From Pseudomonadota bacterium (GTDB lineage: Bacteria; Pseudomonadota; Gammaproteobacteria; Burkholderiales; Burkholderiaceae_C): a stretch of DNA of 43,332 nt. Every line of letters starts with the position of its first letter. Positions within the stretch are counted from its first letter, which is position 1. The notes below the pieces were generated by a model. The model ran no database searches. It worked only from the letters and a program-made list of their open reading frames with translations, and had not been told where the DNA came from. The stretch covers positions 1 to 43,332 of the forward strand of contig JAFECU010000095.1 of assembly GCA_018242005.1 (NCBI GenBank). The letters are read 5' to 3'. A program made the position numbers and the translations under genes. Shown in pieces: positions 26,101 to 42,652 of the stretch.

Positions 26101-26106
26101 TTTCAA

Positions 26107-26151
26107 GTCAAATCGGCCTGTAACGCTTATATGGCAAGCGCTGACAGCTAT
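26107..26151 (-). repeat. Dispersed ~45-bp element, copy 4, at the hisH start
   Basis: Read on the minus strand, the copy begins atagctgtcagcgcttgcca and ends aggccgatttgac. It has the central inverted repeat aagcg/cgctt. It fills almost the entire 49-base gap between hisB and hisH, and its last two bases form the AT of the hisH ATG at 26150. Of the four copies this one is closest to the Comamonadaceae form I remember. Confidence 0.65.
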
Positions 26152-26818
26152 GAATAGTGATGTGAAAACCGTTGCCGTCGTGGACTACGGCATGGGCAAT
26201 CTGCGCTCCGTCTCGCAGGCCGTGCAGGCCGCGGCCCAGGGCAGTGGCTGGCATGTCCTGGTCACCGCGCGCCCCGACGAGGTGCGCGCCGCAGAGCGCG
26301 TGGTCCTGCCCGGCCAGGGCGCCATGCCCGACTGCATGCGCGAGCTGCGCGAATCGGGCCTGCTCGAATCGGTGCTGGAGGCCGCGGCCACCAAGCCGCT
26401 GTTCGGCGTCTGCGTGGGCATGCAGATGCTGCTGGACCACAGCGCCGAGGGTGACACGCCCGGCCTGGGGCTGATTGCCGGCGAGGTCATCAAATTCGAT
26501 CTGGAGCACAAGACCCAGCCCGACGGCAGCCGCTACAAGGTGCCGCAGATGGGCTGGAACCGTGTGCGCCAGACGCGCCACGCGGGCGTGGCCCACCCGG
26601 TCTGGGCCGGCGTGCCCGATGACAGCTACTTCTATTTCGTGCACAGCTTCTATGCGCGGCCGGCCAATCCCCTGCACTGCGCGGGCGAGACCGACTACGG
26701 CCTGCCGTTTGCGGCAGCCATCGCACGCGATAATATTTTCGCCACCCAGTTCCACCCCGAAAAGAGTGCCGAACAGGGGTTGGCGCTCTACCGCAACTTC
26801 CTCACTTGGAAACCTTGA
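26150..26818 (+). CDS. hisH: Imidazole glycerol phosphate synthase, glutaminase subunit
   Basis: HisH hydrolyses glutamine and channels ammonia to HisF, which makes imidazole-glycerol phosphate and AICAR. It has 222 residues. The class I amidotransferase triad is visible: Cys88 in [11 protein letters not shown], His202 and Glu204 in TQFHPEKS. The N-terminus [15 protein letters not shown] is typical. The ATG at 26150 overlaps the end of a dispersed repeat and has no good ribosome site; GTG at 26162 is an alternative that would trim four residues. Its partner hisF is 15.9 kb away in this genome, beyond the Pel locus. Confidence 0.95.
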
Positions 26819-26887
26819 TCGTTGTGCGCCGGGGGCTTTCCGGTACCCCTCGGCACGCAACGCCTAACGCTCATCCTCTGCCAGACC

Positions 26888-27631
26888 ATGCTGCTCATTC
26901 CCGCCATCGACCTCAAGGACGGCCACTGCGTACGCCTCAAGCAAGGTGACATGGACCAATCGACCACCTTTGGTGAAGACCCCGCCGCCATGGCGCGCAA
27001 ATGGGTCGATGCCGGCGCGCGCCGCCTGCACCTGGTGGACCTGAACGGTGCCTTTGCCGGCCAGCCCAAGAACAAGGCGGCCATCAAGTCCATCCTCGCC
27101 GAGGTGGGCGCGGACATCCCGGTGCAGCTGGGCGGCGGCATCCGCGACCTGGACACCGTGGAGCGCTACATCGACGCGGGCCTGCGCTACGTCATCATCG
27201 GCACGGCCGCGGTGAAGAACCCCGGGTTCCTGAAGGACGCCTGCAGCGCCTTCGGCGGCCACATCATCGTCGGCCTGGACGCCAAGGACGGCAAGGTGGC
27301 CACCGACGGCTGGAGCAAGCTCACCGGCCACGAGGTGGTGGATATTGCGCGCAAGTTCCAGGACTGGGGCGTGGAATCCATCATCTACACCGACATCGGC
27401 CGCGACGGCATGCTCTCGGGCATCAACGTCGAGGCCACGGTCAAACTCGCGCAGGCGCTCACCATCCCCGTGATCGCCTCGGGCGGCCTGGCCGGCATGG
27501 CCGACATCGAGCAGCTCTGCGAGGTCGAGGACGAGGGCGTGGAGGGCGTGATCTGCGGTCGCGCCATCTACAGCGGCGACCTGGACTTTGCCGCCGCCCA
27601 GGCGCGTGCCGACGAATTGGCCGGCGTGTAG
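26888..27631 (+). CDS. hisA: Phosphoribosylformimino-AICAR ribotide isomerase (ProFAR isomerase)
   Basis: HisA opens the ribose ring of ProFAR to PRFAR, the substrate of HisF/HisH. The 247-residue beta/alpha barrel begins [21 protein letters not shown] with catalytic Asp8. The phosphate-binding sites [12 protein letters not shown] and [13 protein letters not shown], and the second acid in [12 protein letters not shown], are present. The ATG at 26888 follows the hisH stop by 69 bases; an in-frame extension upstream has no family sequence. The gene ends eight bases before a convergent gene, with no visible terminator between them. Confidence 0.96.
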
Positions 27632-27639
27632 GCAAGGCT

Positions 27640-28845
27640 TCAGCAGCCGGGCAACGCCTTGCCTTGGTTGATGGCGTCTACAGCCCCCAGCATCTGCTCC
27701 CAATAACTGGGCAACGTTGCCCAGGGGTTGCCGGTGTTCGTTGCGTAGTCATAGTGCCGGTCCGTGGCAAAGATCAGGCCGGTATTGCGCTGCGGCGTAT
27801 TGGCCGAGCGCAGCACCTCCTGCATGGCGCTGCAGTTCATCGCGTCATGCACCAGCGCCGCCTGTGCGCTGTTGGCACCGTTGTAGACCCAGGTGTTTGA
27901 CGGCTGAGGCGTGGCGTTGGCATAGGCTGCAGCCTGGCCCTCGAAGCTCACCAGGGCGTCGGCCACGTCGGCGAAACTGGCGACCGGGTAGGTGCCGGGG
28001 TTGCCTACCACGCGCAAATGGGCGTCCAGACCCTTGATGTACTGGTAGACCTCGCGGTAGAAGGCCAACTGCTTGCCGGTGGCATCCATCTCGTCGAGAA
28101 AGAAGCCATCGATCTGCGCCCCATAGGTCTTGCGGTAATTGTCGACATTGCGCAGCACGTCAGTGACCGAGCGCGAACCCTTGCCGTAGCGGGTGTAGAC
28201 ATAGCCAAGCACCTTGCCACCGCTTTGCCGGAAGGCGGTAATGGCCGCCGTGACCAGCGCATCCTCCTTGGTGAATATGCCGTTGCTCGGATTCAATATG
28301 GCCGTGATGGGTGCCGCGCCAAAGGCTTGGGCGCCACGGGCCAGCCTGTCCCAGTCGGACCCCGGTCCGGGGCTGAAGTAGGCCGGCACCAGCAGCTCCA
28401 GCGGCTGGGGCTTGGGGCGGATGTAGAGGCTGCGCGTGGCGCCGACCTTGTCCAGCGTGCCGGCCGCGACGGCCTGCAACTGCACCTCGCCGGGCTGCGT
28501 GGCGGTCAGGCTGGACTGGGCCAGCCCGGCGCTGGTCAGCGGCTGCACCGGTGCAAAGCTGACGCTGGCCGGACCACTGAGCGCGATGGCCGTTCCGTCG
28601 GCTGCGGCTGCTCCGGCTGCCGTGACGCCGAGCCGCAGTGTGACCGGCGTGTTGACGGTGTGTACGTTGTCGGCCTCGGCGGGGGCCGTGAAGATGACTT
28701 CGGCCTTGGATGGGGTCGGCGCATTGGGCGTGGCGGCTGGCTCGCTGCCCTGGCCATTTCCCCCACCGCCGCAGCCGCCCAGCAGCGTAAGCAGGGCGAG
28801 AAGGGAAGCGGCAAGACGGCAGGCAGGGTGCGGCAGGAGAGGCAT
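27640..28845 (-). CDS. Secreted Spherulin-4/GH135-like lipoprotein at the end of the pel operon
   Basis: The 401-residue protein has a lipoprotein signal with lipobox LLGGC (Cys25). A Ser/Pro/Ala linker and an Ig-like beta domain (about residues 47-143) follow. Residues about 150-395 form a TIM-barrel-like domain of the Spherulin-4 family: LLVPAYFSPGPGSDWDRLA, AILNPSNGIF, GKVLGYVYTRYG, then IDGFFLDEM with Asp251-Glu252 and ALVSFEG with Glu302 as likely catalytic acids. The fungal member Sph3 (GH135) hydrolyses galactosaminogalactan, a polymer chemically close to Pel. The gene follows pelG by 65 bases in the same direction, so it probably trims or releases Pel at the cell surface. It is not part of the standard seven-gene operon. 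Activity is inferred. Confidence 0.82.
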   Translation of the reverse strand: MPLLPHPACRLAASLLALLTLLGGCGGGGNGQGSEPAATPNAPTPSKAEVIFTAPAEADNVHTVNTPVTLRLGVTAAGAAAADGTAIALSGPASVSFAPVQPLTSAGLAQSSLTATQPGEVQLQAVAAGTLDKVGATRSLYIRPKPQPLELLVPAYFSPGPGSDWDRLARGAQAFGAAPITAILNPSNGIFTKEDALVTAAITAFRQSGGKVLGYVYTRYGKGSRSVTDVLRNVDNYRKTYGAQIDGFFLDEMDATGKQLAFYREVYQYIKGLDAHLRVVGNPGTYPVASFADVADALVSFEGQAAAYANATPQPSNTWVYNGANSAQAALVHDAMNCSAMQEVLRSANTPQRNTGLIFATDRHYDYATNTGNPWATLPSYWEQMLGAVDAINQGKALPGC

Positions 28846-28910
28846 GATGAACAGGTATGTGGCAAGACGGCTGCCGCGATTGTGCCCATCGTGACGATGC
28901 CCAAAACGCG

Positions 28911-30284
28911 CTATTGCAGCATGAATGTCTGGTATTCCAGCCGATGCAGGCGCTTGGACAGCAGCAGCAGGCCCGTGGCCAGGGTCAGCAAGGTGGCCAG
29001 TGCGAAACCATAGCCATACAGGGCCGCGCCAGACGCCAGCGACAGTCCGGTAAGCGCCACGTTGAGCAGTACGAACATGGCGCACAGGAGCAGCACGGTG
29101 CGCCGTTGGTCCAGGTAGAAGAACACGTTGAGCACGGCCATCAGGCCCACCTGCAGGCCGGCGCCGACCACCTGCACATGCAGGAGCGGCAGGTACAGGC
29201 GCGATATGCCCAGCGTATCCAGCAGCCAGGGGCCGGCCACGAAGGTCACGAGCACGGCCAGGGTCTGGATCTTGGCGATCTCGCCCAGGCCCTGCTGTAT
29301 GGCGTAGACCATCTCGTCGCGCATGGCCTCTATGTATTCGAGCGAGCCACCGCCGCGCACGGCGTCGTAGAACTTGTCGTAGTACTCGACGAAGTCGGTC
29401 TCTATGCGCACCAGGAACACCGCCATGCCGGGAATGATGGACAGGTAGGACAGGAACACCGGCATGTCGTAGATCAGCGAGGCGCGCAGGTGTCCGATGA
29501 TGGGCTGCGAGGTGGGCGGGAAGAACCAGAACATGAACTTGTCGGCCCAGATGCCCAGGTTGTAGAGAAAGCCGACCGCCACCAGCGTTGGGTACAGTCT
29601 GTCGGGCCGCAGGAAGTCGAAGGCGATGAGCCGGCGCGCGGGGTGGAACTCCTTGACCACCAGCAGCCACATGCCCGCCAACAGCACGAAATGGCCCAGC
29701 ACGAAGCCGGCCAGCAGGCCCTCCAGGCCCCAGGGACGCAAGAGCAGGGCGCTGACCACGACCAGCCCGTAGCCCATGCCGAACAGGCCGACGATGGCCT
29801 TGTAGCGCTTCATGCCCGACAACAGCACCGTGAGCACCCACACGCCGCTCATCAGCATGAAGCCCGCCAGCATGAGCAGCCGGTACGCCAGGCCCAGGCC
29901 TGGCAGCACGATGAACAGCGCCAGCGTTGCCAGGCCGGCCGCGCCCAGCAGCACGATCACCATCAGGCCGTGCAGATTGGGCATGACCAGGTGTTTCTGC
30001 TTCTCGAACAGCCGATCCGAGATGAAACGTGTGAACGCCAGCTGCACCAGCCCGGTGTAGATCAGGCTGCTGGCGACCAGGTAGGTGACCGAGGTCTGGA
30101 ACTGCGTCACCAGGCTGGCCGGCACCACTACGCTGGCGCTGAAGATACCCACGAGCAGGATGCCGACGATGGACAGCACCCAGGGCCCCGAGCCGATCAC
30201 CCCCGCGTAGGCATAGGCCTGCACCAGGCTCAGCAGCGTGTTCTTGCGCAGCATGTGGCGCAGTTCGAATCCTATGCCGGCCAT
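28911..30284 (-). CDS. pelG: Pel inner-membrane transporter PelG
   Basis: PelG is a 457-residue polytopic protein related to polysaccharide flippases (MATE-like), with about 12 hydrophobic helices. It works with PelD and PelE and passes the polymer made by PelF across the inner membrane. The start MAGIGFELRHMLRKNTLLSLVQAY is strongly conserved in PelG proteins. Other recognisable segments are GSGPWVLSIVGIL, FTRFISDRLFEKQKH and LGIWADKFMFWF. It starts one base overlapping the pelF stop (TGATG). Confidence 0.95.
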   Translation of the reverse strand: MAGIGFELRHMLRKNTLLSLVQAYAYAGVIGSGPWVLSIVGILLVGIFSASVVVPASLVTQFQTSVTYLVASSLIYTGLVQLAFTRFISDRLFEKQKHLVMPNLHGLMVIVLLGAAGLATLALFIVLPGLGLAYRLLMLAGFMLMSGVWVLTVLLSGMKRYKAIVGLFGMGYGLVVVSALLLRPWGLEGLLAGFVLGHFVLLAGMWLLVVKEFHPARRLIAFDFLRPDRLYPTLVAVGFLYNLGIWADKFMFWFFPPTSQPIIGHLRASLIYDMPVFLSYLSIIPGMAVFLVRIETDFVEYYDKFYDAVRGGGSLEYIEAMRDEMVYAIQQGLGEIAKIQTLAVLVTFVAGPWLLDTLGISRLYLPLLHVQVVGAGLQVGLMAVLNVFFYLDQRRTVLLLCAMFVLLNVALTGLSLASGAALYGYGFALATLLTLATGLLLLSKRLHRLEYQTFMLQ

Positions 30285-31816
30285 CAGGCTGCTCCCGGGG
30301 CGCCGGTCAGGGCACGTTCGTAGACCTGGCGGTAGCGGTCGAACATCAGCCTGTCGGTGTAGTAGCGCTCCACGCGGGCAATGGCCGCGCGGCTGGCGGC
30401 CCGCCAGCGGGCGGTGTCGCCCAGCAGCTCCAGGGCGGCGTCGGCCAGTAGTTGCGGCTCGGCAATCGGTACCACCAGGCCCGAAGGGCCGAGCGCGCGG
30501 TCCTCATCGGCGAGGCCCTCGATGAGCTGGCGGCACGAACCCACATCGGTGGACACGGCGGGCACGCCGGCCGCATAGCCTTCGAGCAGCACCAGCGGCA
30601 GGGCCTCGCTGATCGAGGAGAGCACCACCAGGCCGATTTTCGGCATCAGGTCCTCGACGCGCTGCATGCCCAGGAAGTGCACATGCTCCTGCAGGCCCAG
30701 GCTGCGCACCAGGTTGCGGCATTCCTCGGCATAGGCCGGATCTTCCTCGGCGGGGCCGGCGATCCATCCCTGGGCATCGGGGCGCTGGTTGACCACGCGT
30801 CGCATGGCGCGGATGAAGGTCTTGATGTCCTTGATGGGCACCACGCGGCCAATCAGGCACAGCACCGGCGGCGGCTCGGGCGGCCGCGCTGCGCGCAGCG
30901 CGGCAAAGCGTTCCAGCTTGATGCCGTTGGGGATGTTGGCGGTGCGTCCGGGCGCGGCGCCGTCCTGCACCTGGCGCAGGCGGTTGGCCTCGTACAGCGC
31001 CAGGATGGGGTCGGCATGCGCGTAGCAGTAGCGCCCCAGCCACTCGAAGAAGTAGATCCACATCTGGCGGAAATAGGACAGCTCGGTCGGGTCGCGCTGG
31101 AAGACGTTGCGGTTGTCCCGAATCCACTCGCTCTTGAACAGGTCGATCTTGCGTTCCTTGGTGTAGATGCCATGCTCCGACAGGATCAGCGGCACGCGGC
31201 GTGTCTGCGCCAGCAGGCCGCCCAGAAAGCCCGCGTAGCCGGTGGAGGCGCAATGCACGGCGCGCACGGGAACGAGCTGCTGCGCCACGCGCGCCAGCAG
31301 CCATAGCGGCTGGAGCATGAGGCGTATGGTCCAGAAGAAATCGACGAACGAGGGGTCGGCGCAATGCCGGCGGTAGATGCCGCAGATGAGATCCCAGGCG
31401 CGCTTGCTGTAGAGGAAATCACCGAGCTGCACCGTGCCTCCCGGCGTCATCTGCAGCGCTACCGCCTCGAAGGCCTCCATGGCTTCGCGGCTGTCCGCAC
31501 CATGGTCGAAGGCGTCCAGCAGCCGCTGCACCAGGGCCTGGCCCTGGACTTCGCCGCGGCGCGGGGCGGGCTGCGGGTGCCAGGGCGCCTGTTCGTGCAG
31601 GTAGTGTTCCTCGAAATGCACCACGTTGGGGGGCAGCTCGTACTTGAAGCCGCCGTAGTCCTCGCGCCGGCTGCCGAGGAAGACAATGGCATAGCGGTAT
31701 TCGGGATAGGCGCGGATGATCTGATTGATCCAGCTCGACACCCCGCCGCTCACGTAGGGGAAGGTGCCCTCCAGCATCAGGGCGACGTCGGCCGACTGTG
31801 CCTTGGGGTGGTTCAT
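30284..31816 (-). CDS. pelF: Pel glycosyltransferase PelF
   Basis: PelF is a cytoplasmic GT4-family glycosyltransferase that polymerises Pel from UDP-GalNAc. It has 510 residues from ATG 31814-31816 (MNHPKAQSADVALMLEGTFPYVSGGVSSW; the ALMLEGTFPYVSGGVSSW part is diagnostic). The retaining GT-B motif EX7E is visible as SEALPLVLLE, and the nucleotide-sugar region includes LCLIGRVVPIKDIKTFI. The start overlaps the pelE stop by four bases. The adjacent galE-type epimerase could supply its substrate. Confidence 0.95.
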   Translation of the reverse strand: MNHPKAQSADVALMLEGTFPYVSGGVSSWINQIIRAYPEYRYAIVFLGSRREDYGGFKYELPPNVVHFEEHYLHEQAPWHPQPAPRRGEVQGQALVQRLLDAFDHGADSREAMEAFEAVALQMTPGGTVQLGDFLYSKRAWDLICGIYRRHCADPSFVDFFWTIRLMLQPLWLLARVAQQLVPVRAVHCASTGYAGFLGGLLAQTRRVPLILSEHGIYTKERKIDLFKSEWIRDNRNVFQRDPTELSYFRQMWIYFFEWLGRYCYAHADPILALYEANRLRQVQDGAAPGRTANIPNGIKLERFAALRAARPPEPPPVLCLIGRVVPIKDIKTFIRAMRRVVNQRPDAQGWIAGPAEEDPAYAEECRNLVRSLGLQEHVHFLGMQRVEDLMPKIGLVVLSSISEALPLVLLEGYAAGVPAVSTDVGSCRQLIEGLADEDRALGPSGLVVPIAEPQLLADAALELLGDTARWRAASRAAIARVERYYTDRLMFDRYRQVYERALTGAPGAA

Positions 31817-32811
31817 GCCTGGCTCCAGTAGTCGATCACGGGGCGCAGTCGCGGCAGCGCCCCCCATTGCCGCAGTTCGCGCATCAACGCCTGCGCCTGC
31901 ACATGGTCGCGCCGCTCAAATGCCAGCTGTGCCAGGTAGGGCAGCACCCGCGTCGCGGGCAGGCCCAGGTCGCGTGCGCGGGTGTAGGCCTGCCCGGCCT
32001 CCTGCGCGCGGCCCAGCGCATGCAGCAGGTGCCCGCGGCGCAGGTGCATGGCGGCGTTGCCATCCTGCCGCTCTAGCACCTGCAGGCAATAGCGCAGCGA
32101 TTCCTCGATGGCATGCGTGCGCAGGTCGCCTTGCACCAAAGACTGGTACACCAGTTCCCAATACAGGTCGGACAGGCGCTGGGCGCTGTGCAGCAGTTGC
32201 TGGCTGCCAGGGGTCGCCGCCTGCAGCATGTCGAGCTCGCCGTCGATGGCGCGGTTGATGCGCTGCTCCAGGTTGTCGAGCATGCCGTAGGCCAGGAGCC
32301 GCAGGTCTTCGCTGGAGTCGCTGAGCACGCTGCGCAACAACGGCGAGGCTGTGCGCCCCGAGGCATATTGCAGCGCGGCCATGGCACGCATGCGCGACTG
32401 CACCGGCACCTGGGCATTGACCAGGAAGGATTGCAGCCCGGCGTGGCGGAACTGGTTTTGCCGGCGCTGGTGCTGGTCGAATTCGGGCAGCTGCACGGCT
32501 TCGAACGCCTCGGGCAGTGGCGTCCGGCGGTACAGCCGCAGCACGACAAAGGCCGCGATCACGCCCAGGAAGCCGGCCACGGGCACCGCGTAGCTGCAGG
32601 CCGTCATGAGCAGCAGCGTGGCCCAGCGTGGCTTGGACAGACGCTGTGGCAGCAGCGGCAGAAGCGACAGCGACAGCAGCAGGCTGGCCGCGGCATGCAG
32701 CAGCAGGTAACTGGCCAGGGCCGCATCCGAGCGCCCGGTCAGAAGCCAGGCGCCGCTCCAGGCGCTGACCTCCAGCCCCAGCGCCGACAGGCCAAGCTTG
32801 AGGTTAAGCAT
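31813..32811 (-). CDS. pelE: Pel inner-membrane TPR protein PelE
   Basis: PelE has 332 residues from ATG 32809-32811 (MLNLKLGLSALGLEVSAW). Two or three hydrophobic helices fill the first 100 residues, including LASYLLLHAAASLLLSLSLL and YAVPVAGFLGVIAAFVVL. The rest is a cytoplasmic helical-repeat region of TPR type (LRRGHLLHALGRAQEAGQAYTRA, given in part as LHALGRAQEAGQAY). In P. aeruginosa PelE joins PelD and PelG in the synthase complex. The start overlaps the pelD end by eight bases, and the stop overlaps the pelF start. Confidence 0.92.
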   Translation of the reverse strand: MLNLKLGLSALGLEVSAWSGAWLLTGRSDAALASYLLLHAAASLLLSLSLLPLLPQRLSKPRWATLLLMTACSYAVPVAGFLGVIAAFVVLRLYRRTPLPEAFEAVQLPEFDQHQRRQNQFRHAGLQSFLVNAQVPVQSRMRAMAALQYASGRTASPLLRSVLSDSSEDLRLLAYGMLDNLEQRINRAIDGELDMLQAATPGSQQLLHSAQRLSDLYWELVYQSLVQGDLRTHAIEESLRYCLQVLERQDGNAAMHLRRGHLLHALGRAQEAGQAYTRARDLGLPATRVLPYLAQLAFERRDHVQAQALMRELRQWGALPRLRPVIDYWSQA

Positions 32812-34198
32812 CGGCGATGGCCCGCAGGCGCTCCACGGTACGCACGGGCAGCGCACTGTCGAGCGGCACCACATGCGGAAAGATGCCGGCCTGGGCCAGT
32901 GACTGCTGGCTCTTGTGCTTCATCCAGTCCTCCAGGCGCCGGATATAGCCCTCGGCCGTGGCGGCGTTGCCCAGCGGCATGAGCACGGCCAGCACCTGGC
33001 GCTCGGACGCCACCATCAGCCAGATCTCGTCGAGCTCGCGCCTCAGGCGCTGGATCTGCGCGGGCAGGTCCCGTGCAAGCGCGCGCTGCTGGAACTCCAG
33101 GGCCACGACGATGCTGGGCACCTGGGTGCTTTTGTGCATATGCGCCAGGCGCTGCAGCTCGAAGGCAAACGGGGGCGGGCAGTCGGTGTATCGCTGCACG
33201 ATGGGCCGGGCCAGCGCGTTGCGCGCCAGTCCGTCGGTGTAGTAGCCCAGCAGCAGCTGCAGGGTCTGCAGGGTTTCCTCCTGCAGCGCGAAGAAGGGCA
33301 TGTTCTGCACCAGCAGCAGGCCGTAGATGTCGCCCGTCAGGTCGGTGAGCGGCGCAGCGACCAGATAGCGCGTGTCCTGCCGCGCCGTCGCGGCCTGGCT
33401 CACGTGGCAGGGTTGGCCGGTCTCCAGCGCCTGGCGCACCAGTGGGTCGTCGGCCTGCAGCCCGGTGTAGGCGCCTATGCTGGCGGCGGGCTGTGCACCG
33501 ACCTGGCGCTCCGAGACGGCATGCAGGGCCGCGCATTCGAGCTGGCAGTATTGCGACAGCAGTCGCAGCAGCGCCTGCGGCGGGAGATCGTCGCCGCTGC
33601 CCTCCTGCCCGGCGTGGTGCAGCGCCACGAGCGCATCGCGCATGGACATGGGGCGGGAGATCAGCTCCTGCTCCAGCCGGTCGTGCGACAGGCGCAGCAG
33701 GTAGTGCTGGCGCACCAGGTGCTCCAGGCGCTGGTCCAGGTACAGCTGCAGGGTTTCGGCGCGGCGCGCGCGCGCCTGCCAGAGGCTGGAGAACTCGCCC
33801 ACCAGCATCACCAGGATCAGGCCGCCGAGAAAATACAGCTGCGGAAAGGCTGCCCAGTTCCCCAGGTTGAGCGCGAGCCAGCAGGCCAGCAGCACGCTGG
33901 CGCCGCCCAGGCCGGCCATGGGGCCGTAGCGCAGGGCCAGCACCACGGGCGCAAGCCAGGGCCAGGCAAACGCGGCCTGGGTCTGCAGCGGGTCCTGCGG
34001 CGCCCAGGCCAGGCCCAGAGCCAGGGCCAGCAGCGGCAGCAACAGGGTCTCGCCCACGGTGATAACGGGGTGGCTGGCCGCCGTGGCCAGCCTGCCGAGC
34101 AAATGCCGGGGCAGGCCCATGCCTTGCCGCGTCGGTGGACTGGCGTCGGCTTCGGCCATCTTGCGGCGCAGGCCCGGGCTATCGGATGGTGTGTCCAT
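32804..34198 (-). CDS. pelD: c-di-GMP receptor PelD
   Basis: PelD is the inner-membrane receptor that switches on Pel synthesis when it binds c-di-GMP. The 464-residue protein has about four N-terminal membrane helices (residues 45-140), a coiled stretch, a GAF domain (about 185-330) and a degenerate GGDEF domain. The c-di-GMP inhibitory-type site is kept: R387-E-L-D390 (RRELDEIWLM), with an arginine pair at 420-421 close to where the third contact of P. aeruginosa PelD is expected. There is no GGDEF active-site motif, so it should bind but not make c-di-GMP. The gene starts seven bases after pelC. Confidence 0.95.
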   Translation of the reverse strand: MDTPSDSPGLRRKMAEADASPPTRQGMGLPRHLLGRLATAASHPVITVGETLLLPLLALALGLAWAPQDPLQTQAAFAWPWLAPVVLALRYGPMAGLGGASVLLACWLALNLGNWAAFPQLYFLGGLILVMLVGEFSSLWQARARRAETLQLYLDQRLEHLVRQHYLLRLSHDRLEQELISRPMSMRDALVALHHAGQEGSGDDLPPQALLRLLSQYCQLECAALHAVSERQVGAQPAASIGAYTGLQADDPLVRQALETGQPCHVSQAATARQDTRYLVAAPLTDLTGDIYGLLLVQNMPFFALQEETLQTLQLLLGYYTDGLARNALARPIVQRYTDCPPPFAFELQRLAHMHKSTQVPSIVVALEFQQRALARDLPAQIQRLRRELDEIWLMVASERQVLAVLMPLGNAATAEGYIRRLEDWMKHKSQQSLAQAGIFPHVVPLDSALPVRTVERLRAIADA

Positions 34199-34205
34199 GG
34201 GTGCT

Positions 34206-34760
34206 TCAGCGGCTGCCGGCCAGGCCCGACTGCAGCAGCTTGCGGATCAGCTTTTGCGCCACGGCCGACAGAGCCTCGCGGCTCCATCCGCTTTGGCCGC
34301 CCGAACCGCTCCACAGGGTCTCGCCCGTGGCCACGTCCAGGATCTGCAGTGTCACGCCGGCGGCGGGCTCGCCGTCCACCCCCACCTTGTAGCGCCATTC
34401 CTCGACGCTGCCCGCGAGGGCGTAGCGCAGCTGCTGCTCGCGCGCCCAGGCCAGTGCGTCCTCGGCGCGCTGCGCATCGCCGGCATTGAACAGGGTGTCC
34501 TGCTGTGAAGTGCCGGGCGCGCGGCGCACCGGGCCCACGCCCTGCGCGGCAAGCAGCGACTGTGCGATGGCCTCGGCGCGTTGGCCCGCCAGCGGCGTCT
34601 CGGTGTGGTTGGCAAAGGGCAGCACGACCCAGCTGGCCGGGCGTGCCAGTTGTGGCGCATGTCCCTGGTCCAGGGTGGAGCAGGCGCCGAGCAGGGCGAG
34701 TGCGCCGGTGGCCAGCAACAGCCGCAGCTGGTGTCGGCGGGAGGGGCGGTGATGGAGCAT
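34206..34760 (-). CDS. pelC: Pel export lipoprotein PelC
   Basis: PelC is a small outer-membrane lipoprotein; in P. aeruginosa it forms a dodecameric funnel that guides Pel to PelB. It has 184 residues from ATG 34758-34760, chosen because gaggagaa lies about eight bases upstream; a longer in-frame start lacks this. The signal ends in lipobox LLGAC (Cys near residue 27). The mature part has the expected WVVLPFANHTETPLAGQRAEAI, YALAGSVEEWRYKVGVDGEPAAGVTLQILD and the closing LWSGSGGQSG; I recognise it mainly from these and its place between pelB and pelD. Confidence 0.92.
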   Translation of the reverse strand: MLHHRPSRRHQLRLLLATGALALLGACSTLDQGHAPQLARPASWVVLPFANHTETPLAGQRAEAIAQSLLAAQGVGPVRRAPGTSQQDTLFNAGDAQRAEDALAWAREQQLRYALAGSVEEWRYKVGVDGEPAAGVTLQILDVATGETLWSGSGGQSGWSREALSAVAQKLIRKLLQSGLAGSR

Positions 34761-34789
34761 GAAGGCTTCTCCTCGGTGGTGTCTCAGGT

Positions 34790-37700
34790 TCAAAAATGGT
34801 GCCGGTACGAGAGTTCCAGCAGGCGCGTGAGCCCCAGGGACTGCACGCCGGATTTGCTCAGACCGAAGCTCAGGCGCAGGTGGTCCGGGCCCAGCACGTT
34901 GCCGGCCAGGCCCAGGCGCAGGTCATAGCCCGGGCCCAGCAGGCTGTGGCGTGTGAGGCTCAGGCTCGCAAACGGTCGCAGCGCGCGGGTGTGTTCCTGC
35001 TCGAAGCGCATATTGGTCGAAAGTCGCAGGCCGTAGAACTGAAAGCTCTCGGGCAGGAAGTAGTCCAGCCCCAGGCTGGTGACGCCCGTGGGTGCAAGGC
35101 GCTGCATGAAGTCCTGGCCCTGCGGGCCCAAAAAGAAGGGGTGGCGGCGCTCGAAGCGGTGCGTGGACCAGAAGGCAGCCCATTCCCAGGTGGGCGCATC
35201 CTGGCGAAAGGCGTGGGAGTATTCGAGTCCGGTGTGGCTGCCGCGACCCACCTCGGCGCCCGTTTGCAAGCGGTATTGCTCGCTCCACTGCGACAGCACC
35301 AGACTGTCCTGGCGCGTCGCCTGGTAGCGCAGCAGGGCGGCCACGCGCGTCTTCATGCCGCCGATGCGCAGCGCCAGGCTTTCCTCGCTGGGCAGGTGCC
35401 AGCCCAGTTCGCCGCGCAGGGTCAGGCGCTTGTCCAGGCGCTGCTCATGCTCCAGCGCGATGGGCGTGGTGTTGGCGTAGCCGCGGCGACTGGCCATGCG
35501 CAGCCTTGTCTCGCCGTCGTCGTGGCGCCATTGCAGCAGCGCGCCGGCGATGGTTTCGTCGGGGGCGCTCTGCAGTTGCTCCGGCGCCGTGACATGGCGG
35601 CGCAAGCGGCTCAGATCCACTTCCAGCGACAGGCGCGGGTTGATGACCAGGTGCAGCAGGGCCAGGGTCTGGTCCTCTTCGATGGCTCCCAGGTCGCGGT
35701 GGCGCTGTAGCAAGCCGCCTTTGTCACTGAAGGACAATAGGTTTTCCGCCAGCTGCAGGTGCAGCGGATCGTCGTCTGGCTGGTGTTCTTGCGTCTCGAA
35801 GGCGGCGCTTTGTGCGAGGCGGACGTCGCCCACGGCGGCCGCGGCATTGATGCGGTCGTAGCGCGGCAGGCGCTCGTCAAAGTCCTGCAGCAACTGGCCC
35901 GCGCTGGCCTTGTCGTCCTCGGCCAGGGCCACGGTGATCTCGGCCCACAGCGGTCGGTTGCTGCGCAGGCCGCGGCTGCGTGCGTACTGGTGCCACAGGA
36001 AGCCGCGCTCCGCCGTGTATTCGCCCGCGTCCTGCAGCCAGCCTATGGCTGTCTCGGCGGCGGCGTTGGAGTAGCGGCCCTCGGCGTCCCGGTCCAGGCG
36101 CAGCAGCTCGCGCAGCACCTCCTGGGCCGCATCGCCGGGCCGTTGCAGCAGGATGAGGCGGGCGCGGGCGATGCGCTGCGTGGCGTCCAGCCCCTCTTCG
36201 GTGAGCCAGCGCTGGCGCGCCTGAGCCGCGGTCAGGCGCTGGCCATGGCGTCCCTGGCGCGCGTCCTGCCACTCGCGCGACAGCAGGTGGCGGCGCAGGC
36301 GCCAGGCGCGGTCGGCCTCCTGGTTCTGCTCCAGCGCGTCGGCATAGTTCATGAGCCACAGGAAGTCTTCCTTGTGCTCGGCCACATGGGGGCTGAGGTA
36401 GCGGTTCAAGGCCACTTGCGGCAGGGACAGCGCCTGGTATGCGGCGGCCAGCACCTCGTGCAGGTCTTCGCTGGCGCTCCAGGCCGGTTCATGCACGGCC
36501 AGCAGCTGGCGGATGGCGCTGGCATCGTTGCCGTCTATGAGCAGCCACAACAGCGCCTGGCGAGTGTCGGACGACGACGGGTCCAGGGCCAGTGCCTCCT
36601 CGTAGTACTTGCGCGACAGGGCCAGGCGCCCGGCGCTGTGGTGGTAGCCGCCCACCAGACGCAGGAACTGCGCGGAGCGGCGCAGCTGCGCCAGTGCGTG
36701 GTGCTTGGCCGTGGGCGAGGGGTCGAGCCGCTCCAGCGCATGGGCAAAGTCGCTCCATTGGCTGCGGCTCGCGTACAGGCTCAGTGCCTGGATCAGGTGG
36801 CGTGGCTCGTCGTACTGCTGCCAGGCCAGCAGCGCCACCTGGGCGGCCTCTTGTGGCTGATCCTGCAGCAGCAGCTGGAGGAGCGCGTCGTAGTCCGCAA
36901 CGCTGGCATGCCGCGCGTCCACCAGCTTGCGGTAGGCGGCAATGGCAAGCTGACTGCGCTCGCGGTTCTTGGCCAGTTCGCCCGTGAAGCGCCACAGCTC
37001 GGCGGCGGACTCTGCGGATGCCGGCGGGCGGTCCTGCACGGCCTGCAGCCACTCGAGCCCCAACTCCGGCTGGCGGTGCTGCAGGGCCAGCACGGCCGCA
37101 TGCATGGCGCGCTCGGACGTGAGGTGCGCCGGGTCGGCCAGCAGCCGGCGCCAGGTCTGCAGGGCCAGGTCGGGCTGGCCGGCGCGCTCCGCCAGTTGCG
37201 CGAGCAGTTCCAGGGCGGCGGGTCCTTGCGCGTGCTGTCGCAGGTAGTCTATGGCGGGCTGGGGCTCGCCGAGGCGCTCCTGCGCATCGACCAGGGCGCG
37301 CATCAACCTCGGATCGCTGGGGCGGCTGCGCAGCTGGTGGCGCAGTGCCAGCACCAGCGCGGCATCGTCGAACTGGCCCGGCGCGAGCCGCAGTACGGCC
37401 TGCCAGGCGCTGTCCTGGTTGGTCTGGCGCGCCAGCACCAGCCAGTTTTCCAGCGCGATGGCGGGGCGCTGTGTCCATTCCGACACCTGCGCCAGGCGTT
37501 CGCGCCAGCGCATGTCGGCGGGGCTTTGGCGCACGGCGGCGTTGGCAATGGCCCAGGCATCTTCGAGCTTGCGGTTTTCCAGGAATACCTCATAGCCCAG
37601 GGTGTAGGTCTTGTCGTCAAACGGCAGGCCGGGCAGGTGCCCGGTGGCTGTCCTGTCCGCCACCTGCAGTGACAGGGCGCCGGCCGGCTGCATGAGCAGG

Positions 37701-38695
37701 CCGGCGCCGTCGTCGAACGCCGGTGCCGGTGCCATCTGCGCCGCAGGCGGCTGGGGGTGCCAGGCGACGGGCTGCAGAGCATGTTCCTGGGCCGTAGCGG
37801 CCCATTGGTTGAACTGCTGCTCCAATGCCATGTGCAGCAGGCGGCGCACATAGTGTTCGGCCACGTCGGGACGGCCCGCGGCGCGCGCCAGCTGCGTGAG
37901 CATGAACAGGGTTTGCGGGTCGTCGGCCAGGGGGCCGAGCTCGCGCTCGGCCAGTGCCAGTGCGGCTACGGTCTGGTTGCCCGAGCGCAGCGCGGCAATG
38001 GCCGCTTCGTAGTAGGCCTTGGCCTGGTCCGGCTCGGGCGTGCTGCTGCGTGCGGACAGGTAGAGCCGCGCGCAGCCCTCGTAGTCGCCGCGGGCCAACG
38101 CCTCCTTGGCGGCCCGTTCGTAGAACAGCGCGGCCTCGCGCGGGTCCTCCGGGGCCTCCTGGCGGTTGAGTGCCAGTGCGATCTCCGGCTCATCGAACTG
38201 GCTGGCCAGAGTGGCGAGCCGCCTTTGCCGATCCAGCGGCCAGGCGTCCTGCGCCAGCAGGCGAATCTGTTGCCGCAACGCGCCTGCCAGCGCCACCCGC
38301 CTGTCGGGCTCGCGGTCCGGGACATGCCGGTACTCAGAGTAGAGCAGATCCCACTGCGCCCACAGCGCCTCCTTGCGCAACATCGGGTCGGCAGAGTCCA
38401 GCGCCGGCTGCAGCGTGGCGCGGGCGCTGGCGGTGTCGCCTTGGGCGATCTGGCGCTGCGCCAGCATCAGGCGCAGGTGCGGGTTGGCCGGGTCGCTGCG
38501 CAGCAGATTGTTGAGGTAGGCGGTGGCCAGTTCGGACTCGCCGCTGGCGGCCAGGCGCTGCTCCAAATCCTGGCGCGGGTACAGGAGCCACAGCGCGCCG
38601 CACACCATGGCGGCGAGCAGCACGATCAGCCAGGTGGGCGCGAGGATGGGACGTTCGACGCTAGCGGCAGAGGACCTGGATCTGAGCGGCGGCAT
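34790..38695 (-). CDS. pelB: Pel outer-membrane export porin PelB
   Basis: PelB exports Pel through the outer membrane. From ATG 38693-38695 it has 1301 residues, somewhat longer than the P. aeruginosa protein (about 1190). An N-terminal hydrophobic segment (PTWLIVLLAAMVCGALWLLY, about 17-36) anchors or targets it. A very long periplasmic TPR superhelix follows (roughly residues 45-900), which in P. aeruginosa contacts PelA. The C-terminal ~350 residues alternate polar and hydrophobic residues like a beta-barrel and end SYRHHF, with the terminal Phe used by the Bam machinery. The start lies 35 bases inside the end of pelA, implying translational coupling. Confidence 0.95.
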   Translation of the reverse strand: MPPLRSRSSAASVERPILAPTWLIVLLAAMVCGALWLLYPRQDLEQRLAASGESELATAYLNNLLRSDPANPHLRLMLAQRQIAQGDTASARATLQPALDSADPMLRKEALWAQWDLLYSEYRHVPDREPDRRVALAGALRQQIRLLAQDAWPLDRQRRLATLASQFDEPEIALALNRQEAPEDPREAALFYERAAKEALARGDYEGCARLYLSARSSTPEPDQAKAYYEAAIAALRSGNQTVAALALAERELGPLADDPQTLFMLTQLARAAGRPDVAEHYVRRLLHMALEQQFNQWAATAQEHALQPVAWHPQPPAAQMAPAPAFDDGAGLLMQPAGALSLQVADRTATGHLPGLPFDDKTYTLGYEVFLENRKLEDAWAIANAAVRQSPADMRWRERLAQVSEWTQRPAIALENWLVLARQTNQDSAWQAVLRLAPGQFDDAALVLALRHQLRSRPSDPRLMRALVDAQERLGEPQPAIDYLRQHAQGPAALELLAQLAERAGQPDLALQTWRRLLADPAHLTSERAMHAAVLALQHRQPELGLEWLQAVQDRPPASAESAAELWRFTGELAKNRERSQLAIAAYRKLVDARHASVADYDALLQLLLQDQPQEAAQVALLAWQQYDEPRHLIQALSLYASRSQWSDFAHALERLDPSPTAKHHALAQLRRSAQFLRLVGGYHHSAGRLALSRKYYEEALALDPSSSDTRQALLWLLIDGNDASAIRQLLAVHEPAWSASEDLHEVLAAAYQALSLPQVALNRYLSPHVAEHKEDFLWLMNYADALEQNQEADRAWRLRRHLLSREWQDARQGRHGQRLTAAQARQRWLTEEGLDATQRIARARLILLQRPGDAAQEVLRELLRLDRDAEGRYSNAAAETAIGWLQDAGEYTAERGFLWHQYARSRGLRSNRPLWAEITVALAEDDKASAGQLLQDFDERLPRYDRINAAAAVGDVRLAQSAAFETQEHQPDDDPLHLQLAENLLSFSDKGGLLQRHRDLGAIEEDQTLALLHLVINPRLSLEVDLSRLRRHVTAPEQLQSAPDETIAGALLQWRHDDGETRLRMASRRGYANTTPIALEHEQRLDKRLTLRGELGWHLPSEESLALRIGGMKTRVAALLRYQATRQDSLVLSQWSEQYRLQTGAEVGRGSHTGLEYSHAFRQDAPTWEWAAFWSTHRFERRHPFFLGPQGQDFMQRLAPTGVTSLGLDYFLPESFQFYGLRLSTNMRFEQEHTRALRPFASLSLTRHSLLGPGYDLRLGLAGNVLGPDHLRLSFGLSKSGVQSLGLTRLLELSYRHHF

Positions 38696-41519
38696 CGGGC
38701 AGCTTGAATTGTTGCACCGCGGTGCGGGCCTGTGCCGCGGGGCGCAGGGCGGTGAGGGGGCGCTGGTTGGCGCGCACCTGGCAGGCCTCGGTGTTGGCCA
38801 GGGCAAACTCCAGCGGCACATGGCCCTGGAGCGTGAACTGCAGGCGCCGACCATCGGGGTCGGCCTGCCAGTCGACCAGGCGGGCGTTGGCCTCGTGCAG
38901 GTAGGGGCTGCTCGTCTCGTCGGCGTTCGTCTGCAGCAGGGCTGCGGGTCCGCTCAGGTGCACATAGCGCCCTTCGACGCCCGGGCGCCAACCGGCCACG
39001 GCCTGGCTGGCACCGGTCCGGGGCAGGCCCAGTGCCGCGGGCAGGCGAACGGTGCGCAGGGCTCCATTGCTGCTGCGCAGGCGCCAGCCATCGCCATCAC
39101 GGGCCATGGCGTAGTCGTAGAAGTCCTGCACCTTGGCGATGAATTCGGAGGCGTGCACCGGGTGCAGGGGGTGGTCCAGGGCCCAGTTGTAGACCTTTTT
39201 CAAGGCCTTGAGTGAGGCCGGCTTGCTGGCCGAGTAGCTGTGGTAGTAGATGCCCACGGGCTTGATGCGCCGCGGGGTGTCCGTCATCTCGAAGCTCTCT
39301 ATGACGCGCTCAAAACCGTAGTAAGGCCCGGTCCACAGGTGGGTGTAGATGTTTTCGTTGGTAATTGGCGCATAGACCTGCAGCAGGCCACCCTTGCGCA
39401 GGCCCAGCGCTCCCACGGCCGTAAGCGAGGGGTTGGTGCGGCTGATGGACGTGTCGCCGCCGTTGATGTTCAGCAGCCCGGCGCGGTAGCTGAGCGCCAG
39501 CGCTTCGGCGCTGGGCGCGGTGTCGCCCGACCACTGGAAGATCTTGACGGGCTTGTCTCTGGGTGCCAGACGCTCGTTGATGTAGCGCGTGGAGCCCACG
39601 ATCTCGCGCTCCAGGTTCATGGTGTAGCCCGGAACGGCCAGGGAGCGGGCGGCCTCGCTGTTGTCGGTGAAGATGCCGTGCTGAACTGCGGTGTCCCACT
39701 GGAACGGGTGGGAATAGCTGTGGTTGCCGACCTCGATGTGGGGCAGGCGGAACATCTTGCGCGCGACCTCTTCCATGCGCGGGCTCAGCGCGGGGTACAG
39801 ACCGTCGGGGGCCACTTCGGCCTCGATGACGGACATGGTCTGCGGAATACGGTATTTCTCGAAGACCTCCGTGAGCAGCACCTGCGCGGCGAGCGGGCTG
39901 CCGGGGAACTCGGCGAGCGACGGGAAGCCGTCGCCGTCCACATGGGCCAGCAGCAGGCGCCGGCCATTCTCGGTCGTCGTGTCCGGCACGGGAATGGCGG
40001 GCAGGCGCAGGGCCTGCTGCAAGAAGGCAAAGGGATCGACCAGCCAGCGCGCCTCGTCGGTGCCGGGTATTTCGAACAATACATTCGGGTCGAGGACGAA
40101 ACCACCCCAGGGGGTGATGGCGCCGCCCACAAAGGAGCGGTCGCGCGCGTCGCGCAGCTCGACCAGGCTCTGGGACTGGCGCGCCATGTCGGGCGTGAGC
40201 TGCACCAGATCGTTCTGCCGCGAGGGCAGGGGCAGCGGATTCTCAAACCCCATCATGGGGGCGGCCTGCACCTGGCGCAGCGTGCCCTGGGGGTCGGCCC
40301 GGTCGGGCACCAGTCCCAGGCTGCGCGCGAGGGCACGGTCGGGCGCCAGGCCCCAGTCGCCCACCACGGCGAGCGGCATGCCTTCGCGCATGCGTGCCTG
40401 CAGCCACTGGCTCAGGCCGGCGCGCTGGGGCGCCGCAATGAAGCCTGAAAACCAGCTCACCACGCCGGCATAGCGGTCGCCCGCCACCAGCCTGGGCAGT
40501 TCGCCGCGCACGTCCACATAGTCCGTCACGTAGCCCATGTGGTTGAGCGGCATTTGCAGGTAGCGGTGGGCGTTGGTGTAGTCGAGAGCGGGCGCCTCGC
40601 CGCCGTTGTAGAGCACCAGCACCCGGCGCGCCACGGGCTCGATGCTGCCAATGCCGATGGTGGTCAGCTGCGCGTCCGTGACCCAGGGAATGAAACCGTC
40701 CTGCTGGATCTTTTGCGCCGTGGCGCGCGTGAGGGCCCGATCCTGCGGCGCGACATAGTCGATGACCAACACCGGCAGGCCGTCTCTCTGCCGTAGGGTG
40801 CGCAACTGCTCCATGAGCCATTGCCGGTCCTGGGGCGGCACCTCTTCGTAGCGCCGGGTCTTGGCGTTCCAACGCTGGTAGAGCGATTCGGCCGCCACCA
40901 TCTCGACCTTTCCCTGCAGTTGGGGAAGGATGTCGAAGCCACGGTTGAGGATGAGCCGTATACCGGGAAAGCGCTGATGCAGGGTTTCGATCACGCGCAC
41001 CAGGCCCCGCTGCTGGGCTTGCTCGTCAAACTCGCTGGCCAGGCGGTAGGAGTCCAGCGTGTCGAGAAAAAAGCCCCGAAAGCCGCGCTCCCACAGGGGG
41101 GCCACAACGCGGCTGGCGAAAAACTCGGGCCAGGCCGCGACGCTCTGATCGACCACCTCGGACTGCCAGTCCTGGTTGCGTGCCAGTTTCCACTCTGCCG
41201 GAATATCGGCGTGGTAGGCGCGCGAGGGTTGCACCTCGGTCACCGAGACATAGGCGTACACCTTGGTGGCGGGCCCCAGGGCGTCGACACGGTGCATCGG
41301 ATGGTCGGGGTCCACCACCACCAGATCAAAGGCGCGAAACTCGCCCAGCGGGATCTCATGGCCGTAGTACAGCGCCACTGCGGGCATGGCGGCCCGGGCG
41401 CCGCAGGTCAGCAGCAGGCAGGCCAGAGCCCATGCCAGGCGCATGCGCAACTGCGAGAATAAGCGGGCGGCCATGGGGTCAGATGGGGGCGAGGCGGGGA
41501 TTGGCAGGGCTTGGGTCAT
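38661..41519 (-). CDS. pelA: Pel hydrolase/deacetylase PelA
   Basis: PelA is the periplasmic enzyme that deacetylates and can cleave Pel. From ATG 41517-41519 it has 952 residues, close to the P. aeruginosa length. A signal peptide covers about residues 20-45 (LAWALACLLLTCGARA); ATGs at 41474 and further in could also be starts, and none has a strong ribosome site. The hydrolase domain (GH166, about 46-300) has VPLWERGFRGFFLDTLDS-like sequence (here APLWERGFRGFFLDTLD) and likely catalytic Glu211 in VAAESLYQ. The deacetylase domain has metal residues near 526-530 (HVDGDGF) and His600/His604 (NHSYSHPF), spaced as in P. aeruginosa. It is the first gene of the operon. Confidence 0.95.
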   Translation of the reverse strand: MTQALPIPASPPSDPMAARLFSQLRMRLAWALACLLLTCGARAAMPAVALYYGHEIPLGEFRAFDLVVVDPDHPMHRVDALGPATKVYAYVSVTEVQPSRAYHADIPAEWKLARNQDWQSEVVDQSVAAWPEFFASRVVAPLWERGFRGFFLDTLDSYRLASEFDEQAQQRGLVRVIETLHQRFPGIRLILNRGFDILPQLQGKVEMVAAESLYQRWNAKTRRYEEVPPQDRQWLMEQLRTLRQRDGLPVLVIDYVAPQDRALTRATAQKIQQDGFIPWVTDAQLTTIGIGSIEPVARRVLVLYNGGEAPALDYTNAHRYLQMPLNHMGYVTDYVDVRGELPRLVAGDRYAGVVSWFSGFIAAPQRAGLSQWLQARMREGMPLAVVGDWGLAPDRALARSLGLVPDRADPQGTLRQVQAAPMMGFENPLPLPSRQNDLVQLTPDMARQSQSLVELRDARDRSFVGGAITPWGGFVLDPNVLFEIPGTDEARWLVDPFAFLQQALRLPAIPVPDTTTENGRRLLLAHVDGDGFPSLAEFPGSPLAAQVLLTEVFEKYRIPQTMSVIEAEVAPDGLYPALSPRMEEVARKMFRLPHIEVGNHSYSHPFQWDTAVQHGIFTDNSEAARSLAVPGYTMNLEREIVGSTRYINERLAPRDKPVKIFQWSGDTAPSAEALALSYRAGLLNINGGDTSISRTNPSLTAVGALGLRKGGLLQVYAPITNENIYTHLWTGPYYGFERVIESFEMTDTPRRIKPVGIYYHSYSASKPASLKALKKVYNWALDHPLHPVHASEFIAKVQDFYDYAMARDGDGWRLRSSNGALRTVRLPAALGLPRTGASQAVAGWRPGVEGRYVHLSGPAALLQTNADETSSPYLHEANARLVDWQADPDGRRLQFTLQGHVPLEFALANTEACQVRANQRPLTALRPAAQARTAVQQFKLPDAAAQIQVLCR

Positions 41520-41638
41520 CAAATTTTATGAGGCGCAAATCGTATCCATTGATTTCCCACTTGGTTTCGCAGTGACGTTTGTTAACGCCGTGTTTGCGAC
41601 AATCGTGGTCAGACTAGGCCTCGTCGTAGGAGGGATTC
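41520..41638. promoter_or_regulatory. Divergent control region between pelA and galE
   Basis: These 119 bases are the only space for both the pel and the galE-hisF promoters. The stretch next to pelA is AT-rich (aaattttatgaggcgcaaat). An aggaggga ribosome site (41631 region) serves galE. I cannot fix -35/-10 boxes or a c-di-GMP-responsive operator by eye. Confidence 0.45.
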
Positions 41639-42652
41639 GTGATCTTGGTGACTGGTGGCGCGGGCTATATCGGCTCGCATATGTGCGTGGCGTTGGCACA
41701 GGCGAACGAACCGTTTCTGGTGCTTGATAACTTCGGTAACAGCCGCCCCTCGGTGCTGGAGCGCATAGGGCGCATCACGGGGCGTGAACCCGAATGCGTG
41801 CGTGGCGATGTGCGCGACGCCGCCTTGCTGCGGCAGTTGTTTGCGCGCCACAAATTCACGGCGGTCATCCATTTTGCCGCACTCAAGGCCGTGGGCGAAT
41901 CGGTGCGCGACCCGCTCGCCTACTACGAGAACAACGTCGCCGGCACCGTGACGCTGCTGCAGGCCATGCGAGAGGCGGGCGCGCGCCAGCTGGTGTTCTC
42001 CTCGTCCGCCACGGTGTATGGCGACCCGGCCAGCCTGCCGATCCGCGAGGACTTCCCGCTCTCGGCCACCAACCCCTATGGCTGGAGCAAGCTCATGATG
42101 GAGCAGGTGCTGGCCGACGTGGACGCGTCTGAGCCCGGCCAGTGGCGCATTGCGCGCCTGCGCTACTTCAACCCCGTGGGCGCGCACGAGAGCGGCCTGA
42201 TTGGCGAAGACCCGCAGGGCGTGCCCAACAACCTCATGCCCTATGTGGCCCAGGTGGCCGCCGGCCAGCGCGAGTTCTTGAACGTCTGGGGCAACGACTA
42301 CCCCACGCCCGACGGCACGGGCCAGCGCGACTACATCCATGTCTGTGACCTGGCCGACGGCCATGTGGCGGCGCTGCGCTATCTGCGCGAGCACCCGGGC
42401 CTGCTGACGGTGAACCTGGGCACGGGCCGGCCCGTGTCGGTGCTGGAGATGGTGCGCGGCTTCGAGCAGGCCAGCGGCCGCCCCGTGCCCTACCAGGTCG
42501 GGCCGCGCCGCGCGGGCGACGTGGCCGCCTGCTGGGCCGACCCCGGCCTGGCCGAGCGGCTGCTCGGCTGGCGCACAAGGCGCGACGTGCAGGCCATGTG
42601 CGAGGACGCCTGGCGCTGGCAGGATGGCGTGGCGCGCGAGCTGGCCGATTGA
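41639..42652 (+). CDS. galE: UDP-hexose 4-epimerase, predicted to accept UDP-GlcNAc
   Basis: The 337-residue short-chain dehydrogenase interconverts UDP-glucose/UDP-galactose and, by inference, UDP-GlcNAc/UDP-GalNAc. It starts with GTG after a strong aggaggga ribosome site. The NAD site is [10 protein letters not shown]; the catalytic triad is Ser123 and Tyr147-x3-Lys151 ([15 protein letters not shown]). The gatekeeper residue is Cys298 in [11 protein letters not shown], aligned with Tyr299 of E. coli GalE and Cys307 of human GALE; small residues here let the enzyme take N-acetylated sugars. It is divergent from pelA, and in some pseudomonads the pel-linked epimerase PelX has this role. hisF follows 49 bases later. 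Confidence 0.93.

Follow-up and report, generated by a model that had tools for sequence, protein, structure and literature searches.

A pel operon normally provides its Pel hydrolase as a domain of PelA. The operon in the window analysed here (the whole 43,332-nucleotide contig JAFECU010000095.1 of a Burkholderiaceae_C bacterium, assembly GCA_018242005.1) ends in an additional gene of glycoside hydrolase type, and raises the question of whether it encodes a second Pel hydrolase and, if so, what such an enzyme would do beside the first.

The pel island and its last gene

The features of the locus are collected in Table 1. The genes galE, pelABCDEFG and the additional GH135 gene form an island placed between hisA and hisF that interrupts the histidine genes (25468-43331 with these included), with hisB, hisH and hisA ending at 27631 and hisF starting near 42700, all on the + strand. 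Neither galE nor the hisA/hisF placement had been mentioned in the initial annotation of this DNA. The epimerase encoded by galE may supply the UDP-GalNAc precursor for Pel. A galE also lies next to pelA in L047-L051 and L054, an epimerase-like ORF adjoins pelA in L163, L145 and L164 (by eye only), and no galE match was found beside pelA in Comamonas testosteroni (L063). The true start of pelB is probably further 3' than its ORF bound. As the initial annotation had stated, the GH135 gene follows pelG in the same direction, on the - strand after a gap of 65 nt, and a weak consensus scan found no terminator-like or promoter-like site within 27400-29100. It is the one Spherulin4 gene of the window's genome.

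Table 1. Coordinates of the pel island in the window, and of altered paralogues at other loci
Feature	Position	Strand	Basis or remark
GH135 (Spherulin4) gene for a 402-aa predicted lipoprotein, at the end of the pel operon	27640..28845	-	ORF (ATG at 28845, stop ends at 27640), Pfam
Signal peptide with lipobox LGG-C25, Gly at +2	28771..28845	-	sequence read
Ig-like (Big_1-like) linker domain, weakly supported, missing from some orthologues	28402..28707	-	Pfam below cut-off
Spherulin4/GH135 catalytic domain (predicted), aa 150-401	27643..28398	-	Pfam, alignment
Asp251-Glu252, aligned with Sph3 Asp166-Glu167	28090..28095	-	alignment
Glu302, aligned with Sph3 Glu222	27940..27942	-	alignment
pelG	28911..30284	-	Pfam PelG 1.4e-161
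pelF, DUF3492 + glycosyltransferase	30284..31867 (ORF bounds)	-	Pfam
pelE	31813..32874 (ORF bounds, putative start)	-	by position; weak TPR below cut-off
pelD	32804..34198 (ORF bounds)	-	Pfam PelD_GGDEF 2e-37
pelC	34206..34793	-	by position; Pfam match below cut-off
pelB	34790..38854 (ORF bounds; overlaps pelA)	-	Pfam PelB_C 1.2e-81
pelA, GH166 hydrolase + deacetylase	38661..41522	-	near full-length match to solved PelA
PelA Asp154 (FLDTLDS motif), = D160 of P. aeruginosa PelA	41061..41063	-	
PelA Glu212 (AAESLY), 58 residues after Asp154, = E218	40887..40889	-	
galE, UDP-glucose 4-epimerase, divergent from pelA	41639..42652	+	NCBIfam galE 1.7e-125
Altered lipoprotein paralogue	L061:7046-8389	-	
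Altered lipoprotein paralogue	L065:226-1458	-	
Altered lipoprotein paralogue	L028:236-1561	-	
Altered lipoprotein paralogue	L010:1465-2853	-	
Altered lipoprotein paralogue	L025	-	

The product matches the Pfam family Spherulin4 (PF12138) over residues 151-389 with an E-value of 4.1e-44 (151 bits versus a curated cut-off of 30.2). A phmmer search of the PDB matched the fungal Sph3 structures 5c5g and 5d6t at ~4e-11, and in the same alignment D251-E252 fall on the Sph3 Asp-Glu pair and E302 on its distal Glu. The numbering of the three acids in the initial annotation proved exact. The catalytic residues of Sph3 are Asp166-Glu167 and Glu222 (PMC10485009), and a hand count of 56 residues between the Asp and Glu of Sph3 in the alignment agrees with positions 166 and 222; Asp196, printed as an Sph3 residue in the available part of PMC12054363, does not fit this spacing. 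By its profile match and its predicted catalytic Asp-Glu and distal Glu, the window protein is a member of GH135. No NCBIfam model matched it at E <= 0.01. GH114 was rejected, with no Glyco_hydro_114 match and Spherulin4 the sole Pfam match at E <= 1, as was membership of GH166: hhalign against the PelA hydrolase profile gave a probability of 10.6% (E 0.0029), a weak match that puts FFLDE on FFLDT, and no PelA chain was among the protein's three PDB matches by phmmer.

The signal peptide with a lipobox was likewise confirmed. The lipobox reads L22-G23-G24-C25 and C25 is invariant in 14/14 aligned sequences, the window's included; with this cysteine in place the protein is a predicted bacterial lipoprotein. 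Under the usual +2 rule, the glycine at +2 would direct it to the outer membrane. For the Ig-like domain the initial annotation held in part: a weak Big_1-like signal is present, but all matches lie below the curated cut-off, both in the window (Big_3_5 E 0.075, Big_1 E 0.26) and in relatives, where Big_1 falls as low as 5e-5.

Linkage and co-occurrence with pel

A contig scan for relatives with the 14 aligned sequences yielded 63 loci, and at 29 of them the GH135 gene lies directly 3' of pelG on the same strand. These loci belong to Acidovorax, Paenacidovorax, Paracidovorax, Giesbergeria, Simplicispira and Xylophilus as well as to MAGs, with a pelG-to-gene gap of 34-180 nt (first copies with placed starts). 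Chance can be excluded because the gene is conserved across genera. After 12 exact duplicates among 103 GH135 domain rows had been merged, we found D251, E252 and E302 kept in 43/43 distinct pelG-linked domains and in 86 of the 91 distinct domains overall. In an unrooted tree all 43 pelG-linked domains fall on one side of a branch holding 60 rows (support 99/99), and of the other 17 rows of this clade 13 have all the acids, whereas 4 lack the glutamates. When those 13, which were not seen beside pelG, are taken together with a gene stub at L128, PelG is present in 12 of the 14 genomes concerned, one of which (L072) has its contig edge at the gene, with linkage out of view.

At least two Spherulin4 domains stand in tandem at 10 of the 29 linked loci. 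Tandem genes behind pelG were seen at L049, L052, L081, L082, L084, L088, L091, L095, L097, L098 and L100. All the catalytic acids are present in the copies read, and the copies fall in separate subclades, which makes the duplication seem older than these species.

The initial annotation had proposed a survey for co-occurrence with pel, and its outcome favours an association. The family sample (n=120) held 12 genomes with Spherulin4, 13 with PelG above cut-off and 9 with both; the corresponding figures were 9, 30 and 7 in the phylum sample (n=398), and 12, 43 and 11 in the order sample (n=399). Thus PelG accompanies Spherulin4 in 9/12, 7/9 and 11/12 genomes, respectively. One-sided Fisher values of 1.4e-8 (family), 2.2e-7 (phylum) and 7e-11 (order) are uncorrected for kinship and hence optimistic, as relatives within one sample are not independent and some family genomes are in both the phylum and the order sample. 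PelG matches below cut-off were dropped (G108 in the family sample, four genomes in the phylum sample), G032 was counted as PelG-positive despite a match in two pieces 67 kb apart, and the named-locus and sample counts overlap in that several genomes occur in both (e.g. L089/G320, L101/G025, L102/G206).

In the window's genus, Spherulin4 occurs in 8/8 genomes and PelG in 6/8, with Spherulin4 behind pelG in 6/6. Nine genomes of the family sample hold both genes, and in 4 of these they are neighbours; among the remaining five, four have Spherulin4 lineages that are distant and fall outside the clade. Outside the family, the order sample (n=387, that is 399 minus the 12 family genomes it shows) contains 6 genomes with Spherulin4, 36 with PelG and 5 with both (p 3e-5, kinship-uncorrected). 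In these five, four of which are from one genus, the genes were never found side by side (different contigs in four, ~845 kb apart in the fifth), which makes inherited gene order a poor explanation there. The signal peptide is plain, with no lipobox, in all 5 of the orthologues that were read from outside the family. Spherulin4 is absent from 32/43 PelG genomes in the order sample, so the GH135 gene is optional. Given its recurrent linkage and co-occurrence with pel, we regard it as a pel accessory gene.

PelA hydrolase domains beside the GH135 gene

PelA of the window matches solved PelA over nearly its full length (9cgy 4.9e-183; 5tcb 5.4e-47). The hydrolase residues of P. aeruginosa PelA are given as D160 and E218 in the available part of PMC12022489, and the counterparts of both are in place. 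Since PelA here keeps its hydrolase residues, the operon is predicted to encode two hydrolases, one with GH135-type residues and one with intact GH166 residues, in agreement with the proposal of the initial annotation. Net charge as a predictor of their substrates does not discriminate and was dropped (window Spherulin4 barrel -3, PelA GH166 -6; pelG-linked barrels mean -2.2, range -7 to 3).

The PelA residues D154, D157 and E212 are kept in 19/19 PelAs from family genomes with a GH135-clade member, and strict replacement of the PelA hydrolase by GH135 was accordingly rejected for the family. Of 69 loci given to the PelA reading 6 gave no PelA ORF, and L145, where pelA is split into two ORFs, was not counted as degenerate. 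Degenerate PelA hydrolase motifs were seen at L163 and L164 (Burkholderiales), in genomes with no Spherulin4 match and with PelG scores among the lowest in the order sample.

A second linkage was found in two Paraburkholderia genomes, P. bryophila and Paraburkholderia sp. BL21I4N1. Divergent from pelA, on its 5' side, they have a distantly related GH135 gene (35% identity) whose product contains all three acids and lacks the Ig-like part. The anchor of the Paraburkholderia proteins is ambiguous, some carrying LAGC near the signal end. The hydrolase domain of the neighbouring PelA is down to ~203 of 250 residues, with the first Asp changed to Glu and the second Asp lost; the PelA of the other pel operon in the same two genomes has all residues (L135, L136). 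A shortened PelA class with 198-215 hydrolase-domain residues left is carried by 21/55 Paraburkholderia genomes; D157 is lost in 21/21 and E212 changed to D, P or G in 20/21, while the first Asp is kept in 18/21. These long PelA proteins with shortened hydrolase domains and altered catalytic residues were recorded as L204-L224. The canonical class occurs at 12 places in the 55 genomes, and the 10 that were read have all residues (10/10). Because its catalytic residues are lost, the shortened class is probably inactive.

Spherulin4 is found in 8/21 genomes with shortened PelA versus 2/34 without (p 0.004, uncorrected) and adjoins the shortened-class pelA in three (G546, G937, G961), and the three acids are kept in 10/10 Spherulin4 proteins of these Paraburkholderia genomes. 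No Spherulin4 was found in the remaining 13/21 shortened-class genomes, which rejects obligate replacement and, with L163 and L164, makes replacement at most occasional.

What the GH135 protein may do

The closest characterized relative is Sph3 of the fungal galactosaminogalactan (GAG) pathway, which shares the Pfam family and the aligned DE and E. The GAG cluster consists of gtb3, agd3, ega3, sph3 and uge3 (PMC10485009), with the epimerase described in the available part of a Neurospora paper (PMC11356417). It thus combines a glycosyltransferase, a deacetylase, two hydrolases (one of them GH135) and an epimerase, the same set that is found at the window operon. Unlike Sph3, the window protein is a predicted bacterial lipoprotein with an Ig-like linker and would putatively serve Gram-negative export through PelB/PelC. 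The GH166 domain of PelA works in the same pathway and is likewise a barrel with endo-alpha-1,4-N-acetylgalactosaminidase activity, but belongs to a separate family, is fused to a deacetylase and tolerates GalN. We found no published GH135 gene at a bacterial pel locus among the best-ranked matches of a literature search that covered few subscription papers, and 'spherulin' is absent from the main text of two pel surveys as far as these are available (PMC7112194, PMC7112168). Within that scope, a predicted GH135 member in a pel operon, which would bring the hydrolase families of the operon to two, appears to be new.

The explanation that we favour, and hold to be moderately probable, is that the gene encodes an outer-membrane GH135 endo-alpha-1,4-N-acetylgalactosaminidase, a dedicated Pel accessory that would cut poorly deacetylated Pel. 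The lipoprotein would be made with PelA-G, exported, lipidated at Cys25 and sorted to the outer membrane, where the barrel would be held on its linker near the exit of Pel through PelB/PelC. With Asp251 as putative nucleophile and Glu302 as putative acid/base, it would cut fully acetylated poly-GalNAc runs that PelA had left undeacetylated and so complement PelA's own GalN-tolerant GH166 domain; under-modified polymer would be removed or released, and mature cationic Pel would not be dissolved. AlgL of the alginate operon, reported to degrade own-pathway polymer that cannot be exported (in the available part of PMC9894940), offers an analogy only, being a lyase that acts on another polymer. 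The family match and kept acids, the pelG linkage, the co-occurrence, the Paraburkholderia linkage and a joint loss at L128 described below all support this explanation, as does the resemblance of the gene set to the fungal GAG cluster. Pointing against it are the equally conserved neighbour hisA, adjacency in only 4/9 family genomes, the optional nature of the gene, paralogues that lack the glutamates in genomes where no PelG was found, planctomycetes without PelG, the plain signal peptides outside the family and the ambiguous anchor in Paraburkholderia.

The proposed specificity is taken from Sph3. According to the available part of PMC9135694, Sph3 cuts only acetylated poly-GalNAc and the PelA hydrolase tolerates GalN; Sph3 degrades re-N-acetylated Pel and releases no product from native P. 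aeruginosa Pel, from which the PelA hydrolase domain frees small amounts. In the available text of PMC12345266, Sph3 leaves P. aeruginosa Pel biofilms undisrupted and disrupts GalNAc-rich Streptococcus intermedius aggregates. If the window enzyme shares the specificity of Sph3, its preference would be for acetylated stretches only.

This bears directly on the main rival, in which the same enzyme acts on mature, partly deacetylated Pel for release, length setting or dispersal, the roles that the initial annotation had in mind. There is precedent for such roles: the PelA hydrolase is reported to make secreted low-molecular-weight Pel (PMC9894940, in part), accessory hydrolases are described as flanking Gram-positive pel clusters (PMC7112168, PMC12345266, both in part), and loss of PelAH (BCE_5582) beside the Bacillus cereus pel operon reportedly raises biofilm (PMC7112168, in part). 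Purified PelAH and SIR_1591, each encoded at a pel locus by an additional hydrolase gene, as is predicted for the window protein, are both reported, in the text available, to disrupt Pel-dependent biofilms (PelAH on Pel biofilms, PMC7112168) or aggregates. The Gram-positive accessories differ, however, in that PelAH is PelA-hydrolase-like and SIR_1591 a DUF4832 barrel, and in that the PelA of their clusters is without a hydrolase domain whereas the window PelA has one. The GH135 genes beside a PelA with degenerate GH166 in some Paraburkholderia would also suit release or dispersal. A dispersal role is nevertheless less likely if the enzyme shares the specificity of Sph3, because Sph3 was inactive on native P. 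aeruginosa Pel and its biofilms, and we consider this reading on the whole unlikely; the Pel of the window organism may be more acetylated than that of P. aeruginosa.

Less probable still, and in our estimation quite unlikely, is that the gene is an inherited neighbour of hisA whose product acts on some other GalNAc polymer, such as soil fungal GAG or a surface glycan. HisA is present at 24/29 pelG-linked loci, and at the five without it the sequence stops less than 0.9 kb past the GH135 gene; because hisA is an equally conserved neighbour without a known Pel role, part of the synteny may be inherited. Delftia (G320) has the gene beside hisA and pelG ~17 kb off, and Comamonas testosteroni (G206) has its pel genes between hisA and hisF and the GH135 gene elsewhere. 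No PelG was found in 9/9 planctomycete genomes with GH135 members, some proteobacteria likewise carry GH135 without PelG, and in the window's genus the 2/8 genomes without PelG carry a relative. Those two relatives, however, have lost E252 and E302, and a further argument against this reading comes from an Alicycliphilus MAG with no PelG found in its genome (L128:8169-12342), in which the order hisF-galE-[last 48 codons of GH135 gene]-hisA is a scar of pel loss, and operon and most of the GH135 gene seem to have been lost together. Nor does it account for the second linkage in Paraburkholderia or for the five-in-six co-occurrence that arises outside the family without adjacency. An inherited hisA neighbour is thus possible for the family alone and leaves the other lines of evidence unexplained.

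The relatives without glutamates belong to a paralogous lineage (DGT or DGA; 4/91 distinct domains) in which the first Asp and the lipobox are kept, along with much of the sequence that is conserved in the family. Its four tree rows are G085 and G122, where no PelG was found, and G123 and G124, where PelG is present; G121, with no PelG found, carries the same altered form, and no pel gene occurs in the surroundings read of the altered paralogues in Table 1. They are possible pseudoenzymes, and the persistence of the lineage shows that retention of the protein does not depend on the glutamates. This lineage, together with the lipobox and Ig-like linker, would suit a lectin-like protein that anchors Pel at the outer membrane without cutting it, which is very improbable against the catalytic acids kept throughout the 43 pelG-linked domains.

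Returning to the outer-membrane GH135 hydrolase as a dedicated Pel accessory, a broader version is possible, if doubtful, in which GH135 would be a portable Pel hydrolase, recurrent among bacteria and completing in them the enzyme set of the fungal GAG cluster. It would serve for proof-reading and, in some Paraburkholderia, replace the decayed PelA hydrolase. Blind to deacetylated sugar, it would spare polymer that PelA had deacetylated and cut at the outer membrane what PelA had missed. The locus bears on the purpose of hydrolases in exopolysaccharide operons and on how the amounts of cell-bound versus free Pel are set, and a natural operon with two predicted Pel hydrolase families, together with its decayed-PelA relatives, makes both testable by single-gene removal. 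The GAG pathway of fungi and the Pel pathway of bacteria are linked by this family-level homologue, and the many predicted bacterial GH135 enzymes are candidate tools against GAG or Pel matrices.
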